Assembly (NCBI GenBank): GCA_029934085.1
Contig: JAOZMY010000011.1
Span: 1 to 38,591, forward strand
Direction: 5' to 3'
DNA from: a bacterium
GTDB lineage: Bacteria > Desulfobacterota > S145-22
Length of the DNA: 38,591 bases
Under the pieces are notes generated by a model. The model was given only the letters and a program-made list of their open reading frames with translations. It was not told the origin of the DNA and made no database searches. Position 1 is the first letter of the stretch. Each line of letters opens with the position of its first letter. A program made the position numbers and the translations under genes. This document shows positions 12,893-29,354 of the stretch, piece after piece.

Positions 12893-13114
12893 TTGGATAA
12901 TTTTGAACGATTAGAAAAGGAGGTTGAACGCTTAATTGAAGCTTACGCGAAACTGAAAAACGATATGATGGCAATCAGGGCAAACAACCAAGATCGAAGC
13001 CAAGAAATGAATGCCCTGGAACGCCGCGTAAGCAAATTAGAGGAAGACAGACGGTTAGCTTTGAAAAAGATAGACCAGTTGTTGGAACAACTCAACCAGA
13101 TCGATCTTGGATAG
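12893..13114 (+). CDS. Small coiled-coil protein, ZapB-like
   Basis: A 73-residue protein that is almost entirely heptad-repeat coiled coil (LEKEVERLIEAYAKLKNDM, then ALERRVSKLEEDRRLALKK), rich in E, K, L and R. The size, the coiled coil and the position 5 bp before zapA suggest a ZapB-like or zapA-partner protein that helps organise the FtsZ ring. There is no in-frame ATG near the 5' end; a TTG right after an AT-rich leader is the only reasonable start, with a weak GTGAG ribosome site. Coiled coils are poor evidence of homology, so the name is tentative. Confidence 0.65.
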   Translation: MDNFERLEKEVERLIEAYAKLKNDMMAIRANNQDRSQEMNALERRVSKLEEDRRLALKKIDQLLEQLNQIDLG

Positions 13115-13119
13115 ATAAA

Positions 13120-13410
13120 ATGGCATTGGTACAAGAAGAACCTGTAAAAGTCTATATCCTGGGTCAAGAATACCTGGTTAAAAGCGAGGAAGGAGAAGAC
13201 CATGTTCGAAAGGTGGCTTCGTACGTAAACGAGCAAATTGAGAACATTATCGAAACAACCAAAACCGTTACAACATTTAAAGTCGCGATCCTCGCTGCCA
13301 TGAGGATTGCAGATGAATATTTTAAGGAAATGGAAAAGAACAAGAGGTTAGTAGATTTTGTGGAGAATCGCTCGAAGAACCTATTAAATAAAATAGAAAG
13401 GCAGGTTTAA
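13120..13410 (+). CDS. zapA: Cell division protein ZapA
   Basis: ZapA binds FtsZ and bundles protofilaments at the division site. The 96-residue protein has the typical N-terminal domain (VKVYILGQEYLVKSEEGEDHVRKVA), the Y-V-N-E-Q-I helix and a C-terminal coiled coil (MRIADEYFKEMEKNKRLV). It lies 5 bp after the zapB-like gene and directly before 6S RNA, an order common in many bacteria. Confidence 0.9.
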   Translation: MALVQEEPVKVYILGQEYLVKSEEGEDHVRKVASYVNEQIENIIETTKTVTTFKVAILAAMRIADEYFKEMEKNKRLVDFVENRSKNLLNKIERQV

Positions 13411-13411
13411 A

Positions 13412-13588
13412 TGTTCCCCTGCGTTGTACGTGAATGTCGGCATTTTTTGAGCCAACAGCCAAAAAACGGAAGGATCCTCTACCTGCCGTGTGCATGCCTC
13501 TTACGAGGAAGCCTAACGCAGGCATCGATCCGTCCACCTGCGAGAGCAGGTTCAAACTTGCCGGCCACACGGCAATAGCGGGGGAATT
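13412..13588 (+). ncRNA. ssrS: 6S RNA (RNA polymerase regulator)
   Basis: 6S RNA folds as an open promoter mimic that sequesters sigma70 RNA polymerase. The ends pair: TTCCCC (13414-13419) with GGGGAA (13581-13586), and TTG with CAA further in. The core resembles known 6S RNAs: a GTGCATGCCTC segment, GAGGAAGCC, then GGTTCAAACTTGCC and CACACGGCAATAGCG near the 3' end. Position directly after zapA is the classical location. About 177 nt matches the family. Exact ends are estimated from the terminal stem. Confidence 0.87.
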
Positions 13589-13592
13589 TTAA

Positions 13593-13831
13593 TTTGCATA
13601 GATATGAGTTTCAATCAAAAAACCGCTCTTTTTTTAAGGGGAAATCTATACCATACACCCCTCCTTCCTTTGGGAGGAAAGGAAACTCATATGCATAGCG
13701 CCACATACCCATCTGTCACGCACGGGGTATTGACGCTACCCGTTACATTCCGGGCTGTCTAAATTTTATTCTCCCAAGATCTACCTTCTCCTCTTGTCCC
13801 GAGCAAGGGGCCTTGATTTGGCCCTCGGGAA
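13593..13831 (+). other. Structured leader RNA between 6S RNA and rny
   Basis: This stretch codes for no protein but is full of inverted repeats. TATGAGTTTC (13603-13612) pairs with GAAACTCATA (13682-13691), extended by TGCA (13595-13598) with TGCA (13692-13695). Inside that loop AGGGG can pair with CCCCT, and CCTTT with AAAGG. A second hairpin is ACGGG(G)TA with TACCCGT (about 13722-13743). A third is CCCGAG...GGCC with GGCC...CTCGGG (about 13798-13830), ending just before the rny ribosome site AAGGAGG. It could be the 5' leader of rny, a separate RNA, or a 6S-flanking element. Confidence 0.55.
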
Positions 13832-13843
13832 AAGGAGGAACAT

Positions 13844-15415
13844 ATGATGCACTTTAGCCTGTTTATCATCATCGGTATCACGTTGTTTTTCACGGCCGTA
13901 GGTGTTGCTGTCGGGTTCTTTATACGGAAGAAGATCGTCGAAGGGAAGATCAAATCGGCTGAACACCTCTCAAAGAAGATCATCGAAGAGGCGGAAAAGA
14001 AGGCGGAACTCCTCAAAAAAGAGGCCCTCATACAGGCGAAAGACACCCTTTATCAATCCAAGGCAGAACTGGAAAAAGAATCCCGCCAAAAGATGAAGGA
14101 GCTTCAGGCCCTCGAGCGGTCCCTTATTCAACGGGAGACGGCCCTGGACAAGCGGGACGAGGTCCTAACTGAAAAAGAGGAAAAGCTTACAAGACGGCAA
14201 GAAGAACTTTATGACAAGCTCCACCACATAGAGGAAAAAGAAAAAGAGCTACAAGAACAGATCCACCTCCAGAGGGAAAGGCTCGAATCGATCTCCGGGA
14301 TGACATCAGAACAGGCGAAGAAGATGCTCATGGAATCGCTCGAAGAAGAGGCCAAGCACGAGGCGGCTAAGCGCATCCGTCAGATCGAAGAAGCCGCCAA
14401 GATGGAAGCGGACAAAAAAGCCAAGGAGATCATCAGCGTGGCTATCGGCCGCTTCGCGAGCGAATACGTGAGTGAGAAAACCGTGACGGTTGTCAACCTG
14501 CCCAGCGATGAGATGAAGGGACGGATCATCGGCCGGGAAGGCCGTAACATCCGGGCCATCGAGGCTGCTACCGGTGTGGACCTCATCGTGGACGATACGC
14601 CTGAGGCCGTCATTCTCTCCGGGTTTAATCCCATCCGACGGGAGATCGCACGTTTGACGCTTGAAAAACTCATCAAGGACGGAAGGATTCATCCTGCCCG
14701 GATTGAGGAGGTAGCAAACCGCTCGGAGGAAGAGGTTGAAGCCATCATCAAGGAGGCCGGGGAACAGGCAACGTTCGATCTCGGAATCCACAGCCTTCAC
14801 CCCCAACTGATCCGCCTCTTGGGGAGCTTGAAATTCCGCTCCAGCTACGCCCAGAACGTCTATCAACACTCCATCGAAGTGGCGTTCCTCTGCGGTCTTA
14901 TGGCCGCCGAACTGGATCTGGACACGAAACTGGCCCGCCGGGCTGGACTGCTTCACGACATTGGGAAGGCGGTCGATCACGAGGTGGAAGGATCCCACGC
15001 CAAGATCGGCGCCGATCTCGCGCGGAGATATGGGGAGACTCCCGAAATCGTCCACGCCATCGCGTCACACCACAACGAGGAAAAACCGCAAACCATCCTG
15101 GACCACCTCGTTCAGGCGGCCGACGCCCTTTCCGGGGCACGACCCGGTGCGCGGCTGGAACTCTTTGAAAGCTACGTCCGCCGCTTGCAGGACCTGGAGA
15201 ATATTGCCAAAGGATTCAAGGGCGTGGAAAAGGCCTATGCCATTCAGGCCGGGCGGGAACTCCGCGTCATGGTCAAGAGTGACGAGATAGACGATGATCG
15301 TGCTGTGGTTCTCTGCAACGACATCGCCAAACAGATTGAAAAAAAGCTCACGTATCCCGGACAAATCAAGGTTACGGTGATCCGCGAGTTACGCTCCGTC
15401 GGCTATGCCAAGTGA
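13844..15415 (+). CDS. rny: Ribonuclease Y
   Basis: Membrane-anchored endoribonuclease that starts mRNA decay. At 523 residues it has the normal domain order: N-terminal membrane helix (about 3-25), long coiled coil (about 30-195, many K/E heptads), KH RNA-binding domain (about 212-275, with [23 protein letters not shown]) and an HD phosphodiesterase domain (about 340-430, with [15 protein letters not shown]). The first of two adjacent ATGs has AAGGAGG 5 bp upstream. It overlaps the downstream phosphodiesterase gene by 11 bp, the rny-ymdB coupling seen in many bacteria. The upstream 250 nt is structured, which may allow self-regulation as for RNase E. Confidence 0.96.
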
Positions 15416-16199
15416 TTCTTCCCCACTTCGGATACTTTTTATCGGGGACATCGTAGGACGTCCGGGGAGGGGTGCCTTAAAACAGTGGCTGCCCGGTTGG
15501 CGGAAGGAACACGAAATCGACTTTGTCGTGGCCAACGGGGAGAACGCAGCGGGTGGCATGGGCATGACGTCCAAGACCTATCATGAACTCCTCGACCTCG
15601 GTATCGATGTCATTACGTCGGGGAACCACATCTGGAGCAAAAAAGAGATCTACCCCATTTTAGACTCCTCTGACAGGCTCCTGCGTCCCGCCAATTACCC
15701 GGAAAACGTTCCTGGGAAGGGATGGACCAGCCATACCACCCATGATCAAAAGGTCCTTATCATCAATCTCGAAGGCAGGGTCTTCATGAAGAGCCTGGAA
15801 TGCCCTTTCAAAACCGTCGACAAAATCCTTGAAGAATTCGACGGAAAAATCGTCTTGGTCGACTTCCACGCGGAGGCAACCTCTGAAAAGATTGCCCTGG
15901 GATGGTATCTGGACGGCCGGGTCAGCGCCGTGGTCGGCACTCACACCCATGTCCAGACGGCAGACGAGACCATCCTTCCCCGAGGAACGGCCTATATCAG
16001 CGACCTGGGGATGACGGGCCCCATGGACTCGGTCATTGGAATGAAGAAGGATGTGGTGCTTCATCGATTCCTCACGCAGATGCCCTCAAAATTCGAGGTC
16101 GCCAAGGGCCGAACCGTCATCTCTGGCGCCCTGGTCGAGATAGATCCTGAAACCGGAAGGGCCATTTCCATTGAACGAATCCAGATCACCGGGTCATAA
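15405..16199 (+). CDS. ymdB: YmdB-family metallophosphoesterase (2',3'-cyclic nucleotide phosphodiesterase)
   Basis: A dimetal phosphodiesterase of the TIGR00282 family, 264 residues. Metal-binding motifs appear in order: [44 protein letters not shown] and [10 protein letters not shown]. Bacillus YmdB hydrolyses 2',3'-cyclic nucleotides and influences biofilm formation; the role here is inferred. The ATG lies inside the rny 3' end. The closest SD-like sequence is weak, so translation is probably coupled to rny. Confidence 0.9.
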
Positions 16200-28986: not shown

Positions 28987-29016
28987 TCTCCCGCAGAAAC
29001 GCAACGTTTTTGCCTC

Positions 29017-29044
29017 TTGACATTTTTTCAAGAAAAATTATATT
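29017..29044 (+). promoter_or_regulatory. Predicted promoter of the FmdB-type gene
   Basis: A perfect TTGACA (29017-29022) with TATATT after 16 bp (29039-29044) or TATTAA after 18 bp (29041-29046). These are the same hexamers and spacings as the feo promoter. The gene starts 34 bp later behind AGAAGGAGG. Confidence 0.65.
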
Positions 29045-29078
29045 AAAAACGCCGAGAGGTTTTAAGAAGGAGGGTGTC

Positions 29079-29354
29079 ATGCCGATCTACGAATATCATT
29101 GTGTGGACTGCGGTAAGGATTTCGAATTTATGCAGAAATTTTCCGATCCACCCAAAACGGTTTGCCCCGATTGCGGCGGGGAGCTCAAAAAGTTAATTTC
29201 TCAGTGCACATTTCATCTGAAAGGAACGGGATGGTACGCTACGGACTACGCAAACAAGAGCTCTTCCGGTTCTTCGGGTAAAAGCCACCACAAAACCTCC
29301 GAACCGAAAACGGAGAAAAAGGAAAAAACCGAATCAAAATCTGACTCCGCCTAA
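29079..29354 (+). CDS. FmdB-family zinc-ribbon protein
   Basis: A 91-residue protein beginning [17 protein letters not shown], the canonical FmdB start. Two CxxC pairs (C8/C11 and C29/C32) form the zinc ribbon. The C-terminal half after residue 55 is a low-complexity serine and lysine/glutamate-rich tail. FmdB proteins are thought to be regulatory but are poorly understood. The gene has its own promoter, a strong AGAAGGAGG ribosome site and a perfect terminator, so it is a one-gene unit likely to be well expressed. Confidence 0.88.

Follow-up and report, generated by a model that had tools for sequence, protein, structure and literature searches.

A conserved hairpin predicted to sequester the Shine-Dalgarno sequence of the RNase Y gene downstream of 6S RNA in one lineage of Thermodesulfobacteriota

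The window analysed here is a stretch of 38,591 nt from a metagenome-assembled genome (assembly GCA_029934085.1, contig JAOZMY010000011.1) that belongs to a class-level lineage of the Thermodesulfobacteriota (Desulfobacterota). It carries, all on the + strand, a zapB-like gene, zapA, the 6S RNA gene, a gap of 255 nt, rny (encoding RNase Y) and ymdB (Table 1). We compared this locus with those of five relatives, giving a class sample of six genomes from one family and three genera; the taxonomic labels on the close relatives read Proteobacteria, Thermodesulfobacteriota or just 'bacterium'. In an Rfam scan of the whole window, 6S RNA was the sole match, and searching the gap (13589–13843) at E values up to 10 returned chance matches only. 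The initial annotation had raised the possibility that the gap belongs to 6S-Flank, which we take to be the name of an Rfam family, and this was not borne out. The gap is present as a single copy in the genome, and we rejected a mobile or repeated element as its origin.

Table 1. Features between the zapB-like gene and the ymdB-like gene (positions in the window)
Feature	Position	Strand	Evidence or remark
zapB-like gene	12893–13114	+	Pfam ZapB 3.2e-9
zapA	13120–13410	+	Pfam ZapA 3.4e-19
6S RNA gene	13413–13588	+	Rfam RF00013, 104.7 bits, full length, above gathering score
Fast-evolving 6S-distal spacer	13589–13762	+	No similarity outside genus; neutral-rate identity to congener over 13604–13762
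5′ arm of 11-bp long-range stem	13602–13612	+	p ~0.009 against shuffles; not conserved outside genus
52-codon ORF, uncertain meaning	13604–13762	+	Starts 15 nt after Rfam 6S end
3′ arm of 11-bp long-range stem	13682–13692	+	Sequence pairing
Predicted local hairpin (TAGCG/CGCTA, ATACCC/GGGTAT)	13696–13739	+	Alternative to 13722–13743; sequence not conserved in relatives
Conserved pyrimidine-rich segment (TTCTCCC...TCTACC), before hairpin	13763–13788	+	85% identical in congener
rny leader hairpin sequestering the Shine-Dalgarno sequence (SD)	13789–13839	+	−29.5 kcal/mol, z −3.3
rny SD, AAGGAGG	13832–13838	+	Inside hairpin 3′ arm; ~2% predicted unpaired over 13833–13838
rny, RNase Y	13844–15415	+	Pfam RNase_Y_N 2.8e-60, KH_1, HD
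ymdB-like gene	15405–16199	+	Pfam YmdB 8.2e-114

The gene order resembles the zapB-zapA-ssrS-(FAU1/ygfA) neighbourhood of beta- and gamma-proteobacteria (PMC7641849) in running zapB-zapA-6S-(fthC). It differs in that rny rather than an EVE-domain gene follows 6S RNA and in that searches of the six class genomes found no fthC, which encodes 5-formyltetrahydrofolate cyclo-ligase. Among the sampled loci of the phylum (including L079–L158), both 6S RNA and rny could be placed in 111 genomes, and in 106 of these the 6S RNA precedes rny on the same strand at a distance of 79–1250 nt; in many genomes the long gaps hold fthC. We found no description of this phylum-wide adjacency in the literature searched (6S RNA with RNase Y in deltaproteobacteria). 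It suggests a possible link between 6S maturation and RNase Y.

The gap consists of two regions with different histories and is not one structured RNA. In the six-genome alignment the 6S RNA is near-identical, nothing next to it is alignable beyond the genus, and a conserved block begins at about position 13763 and continues into rny; this block (13763–13843) is kept in all six genomes. Identity to the congener (L013) is 95% in 6S RNA, 47% over 13604–13762, 85% over 13763–13788 and 71% over 13789–13839. For the same genome pair, identity at four-fold degenerate rny sites is 49%, and 13589–13762 therefore drifts as DNA free of constraint would. In the other genus too, the pyrimidine-rich segment ahead of the hairpin can be recognised. 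The interval 13589–13860 folds better than shuffled sequences in this genome (z −3.6). For 13589–13762 the z-score is −3.25 here and lies between −0.64 and +0.60 in the five relatives; strong folding of this region is peculiar to the present genome. This region is a rapidly drifting spacer, as fits its position, which is where related genomes carry fthC.

The initial annotation had described some 250 nt of structured RNA with three strong inverted repeats. All three are present in the sequence, but only the hairpin nearest rny is conserved. The long-range stem between TATGAGTTTC (13603–13612) and GAAACTCATA (13682–13691) is real and extends to 11 bp; when the longest perfect inverted repeat was taken from each shuffle of the gap, 0.9% of shuffles reached this length, and the stem is predicted to be paired at 0.7–1.0 per position, also with 6S RNA attached. 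The congener closes the same distal stretch with a different stem, TGCATAGA/TCTATGCA. A genus-level role for the closed stretch is conceivable, two sequences being too few to show one. The hairpin at 13722–13743 (ACGGGGTA/TACCCGT) can form but competes with a better one at 13696–13739, and neither is conserved. The distal region is also flanked by an imperfect direct repeat, ATTTGCATAG (13592–13601) and ATATGCATAG (13689–13698), 97 nt apart, and the palindrome TGCATA occurs at both of its ends, so that the long-range stem can form in two registers.

The folding in this genome, the occurrence of a stem beyond chance and the closure of the same region in the congener would all suit a single regulatory RNA or riboswitch of three stems spanning the whole 250 nt. 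Against this, the distal two thirds drift neutrally and fold no better than shuffled sequences in the five relatives, and there is no Rfam match. The switch by alternative pairings that had been envisaged also found no support: CCTCCTT at 13660–13666 exists as a complement to the AAGGAGG of the SD, but its predicted pairing probability is negligible, and no other competing SD pairing of note was seen. Since conservation of the gap beyond the genus does not reach upstream of 13763 and one hairpin dominates the pairing of the SD, we consider a structured RNA of this length scarcely credible and already largely refuted. It is also highly unlikely that the distal gap serves as a translated leader ORF, in which translation rather than the peptide would matter, for example by blocking Rho termination after 6S RNA. 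The gap, said to code for nothing, indeed contains no known protein, but it does contain an open frame of 52 codons. In each of the six genomes an ATG lies 6–17 nt after the 6S-terminal GCGGGGGAA, the ORFs that follow have 52, 53, 51, 53, 37 and 31 codons (each p 0.02–0.05 against shuffles), and four of them end at an aligned stop; Rho-dependent termination after ssrS has been reported in E. coli (Chae 2011, by its title in the references of PMC7641849). However, the ORFs were spotted only after the fact, in sequences that are related to one another, the amino acids are no more similar in frame than in the other frames (frame scores 21, 14 and 0), Pfam gave no match, and most members have no good SD at normal spacing. 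The evidence for this ORF is suggestive.

The third repeat had been placed at about 13798–13830, ending directly before the ribosome site of rny. The hairpin is real but larger, and it does not precede the ribosome site, as the SD forms its 3′ arm. In all six class genomes the SD is predicted to fold onto a CCTCTT or CCTTCTT arm ∼40–45 nt upstream, so that every relative has the SD in a stem with its complement on the 5′ side. Five genomes share an identical anti-SD arm, CCTCTT, and the sixth has the equally pairing CCTTCTT. A second stem, CCCG/CGGG, follows the anti-SD arm, and the cap beyond it differs in sequence and length and often pairs internally. In the most distant member (L005), CCTTCTT/AAGGAGG and CGC/GCG stand in for CCTCTT/AGGAGG and CCCG/CGGG. 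RNAalifold agrees with this structure.

Within the six-genome alignment, 94% of the cells are paired in register, compared with 45–70% when the 3′ partner is slid. One pair has changed on both sides, from A-U to C-G, but 7 of the 12 pairs never vary and the observed covariation score was reached by 91 of 500 shuffles. Because of this, the covariation statistic alone is not decisive. The complementarity of the 5′ arm to the SD, which has no other obvious reason to persist, is the stronger argument. A covariance model built from four relatives, with this genome left out, found 13787–13838 (38 bits, 7e-6) and no other match at E ≤ 0.001 in this genome; it missed the hairpin of L005. The model built from all six sequences gave one match per class genome, always at rny, which follows by construction. 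No homologue of the hairpin was found by the model in the rny upstream regions of ∼80 other phylum genomes. The folding z-scores of the leader alone are modest across the class genomes, from −0.4 to −2.3. Elsewhere in the window, the hairpin model gave a weak match (E ∼0.2) at 29010–29079, ahead of a small gene for an FmdB-like zinc-ribbon protein. A good consensus promoter (TTGACA...) overlaps this match, which is probably due to chance.

The predicted state of the SD hardly depends on where the transcript begins. It was ∼98% paired whichever of the tested 5′ ends between 13413 and 13790 was used, and only with an RNA beginning at 13795, inside the 5′ arm, did it become largely unpaired (0.81). 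Pairing is with 13790–13795 at a probability of ∼0.9, and a shifted register (0.09) is the sole alternative above 0.05. Opening the SD costs 8.7 kcal/mol, which ranks fourth among 131 genes sampled in this genome (from the window and 20 contig pieces, using a simple gene caller), where the median is 2.9 kcal/mol. Across 51 other phylum genomes, the opening-cost rank of rny was mildly raised (KS p 0.007; family-averaged p 0.10) and its upstream-pairing rank was not (p 0.32). SD sequestration at rny as a phylum-wide rule was rejected on the strength of this weak excess; the mildness of the excess instead indicates a trait of this lineage with scattered look-alikes. Two such look-alikes, CCTCCTTG-CCGCGAC-CAAGGAGG in G019 (L139) and CCTCCTTGT-GAGCAT-ACAAGGAGG in G171 (L141), place the rny SD of another family in a perfect hairpin of 8–9 bp and are apparently independent of the hairpin described here.

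We therefore favour, with a probability of about 0.6, the view that the functional part of the gap is the rny 5′ leader (13763–13843), whose SD-closing hairpin would restrain translation of RNase Y. The earlier proposals that a hairpin could block the rny ribosome site, and that it has a conserved link to rny, hold in all six class genomes as judged from predicted structure. According to the model, CCUCUU (13790–13795) pairs with AGGAGG of the SD and is stacked on the CCCGA/UCGGG stem with its variable cap. The SD would stay closed until the hairpin opens, so that RNase Y would be translated inefficiently and to an adjustable extent. The comparison shows the hairpin, its conservation and its predicted pairing with the SD, whereas its action on cellular translation and the manner of its opening are inferences: 30S subunits probably load on the conserved unpaired pyrimidine-rich segment, a possible standby site, and await opening, or else a protein, possibly RNase Y itself, might bind or cut at the leader.

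The last of these routes leads to autoregulation, in which RNase Y would bind or cut its leader and repress or destabilize its own mRNA by analogy with RNase E; we regard this as plausible, though less likely than not. In B. subtilis, RNase Y autoregulates by cutting the 5′ UTR and the early ORF of its own mRNA, and the limit on rny expression is post-transcriptional (PMC10303841). The likeness to the present leader, as modelled, extends to the ribosome site, which can lie in strong secondary structure there too. However, the B. subtilis structure runs downstream into the ORF as far as codon 13, whereas the SD partner lies upstream here, and when that structure was destabilized, expression was little affected and autoregulation only slightly weakened (PMC10303841). 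The E. coli rne leader likewise places a stem-loop in the leader of the mRNA for the main decay endonuclease; according to the account cited in PMC10303841, RNase E binds this stem-loop and cleavage is thereby driven elsewhere. It has no sequence relation to our hairpin, and the likeness is one of predicted structure. Moreover, a cut upstream of the hairpin is predicted to leave the SD closed, and it would take one inside the 5′ arm to open it. Less probable still is a hairpin that serves chiefly in mRNA stability or processing, acting as a 5′ barrier against a 5′ exonuclease after cleavage of a 6S-rny precursor, with SD pairing incidental. The adjacency of the two genes on one strand across the phylum would suit this, as would the dicistronic ssrS-ygfA transcript that is processed to 6S RNA in E. 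coli (PMC7641849) and the scan of the gap on the + strand, which found no consensus promoter. A plain barrier, however, would not need a 5′ arm complementary to the SD itself, and this complement has been retained through changes. Finally, the conserved block 13763–13839 could act as DNA, as a promoter or operator, since in three relatives CTCTTGACC looks like a −35 box. No member has a −10 box at the right distance, on which ground a promoter in the block was rejected, the + strand scan likewise gave no promoter, and what is conserved is a pair of complementary arms flanking a loop that varies, so we hold a DNA-level role to be very improbable.

Hairpins in 5′ UTRs that sequester the SD by pairing it with an anti-SD arm are familiar from thermometers and ribosomal protein leaders. 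For the rny hairpin, in contrast, no signal, ligand or family consensus was identified. As modelled, it is an ordinary kind of control element that is new at this place, in the rny leader of one lineage. A wider scheme, which we consider distinctly unlikely, would have 6S RNA and RNase Y form one transcribed unit across the Thermodesulfobacteriota. The leader hairpin would then silence rny on read-through from the 6S precursor until demand for RNase Y or a regulator opened it, placing a housekeeping nuclease and a stationary-phase regulator of RNA polymerase under joint control, possibly with RNase Y maturing 6S RNA. In many bacteria the main decay enzyme is RNase Y in place of RNase E, and only in Bacillus is it known what sets the amount of RNase Y. 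The hairpin on the rny ribosome site, present lineage-wide, offers a direct and cheaply testable handle on this question.
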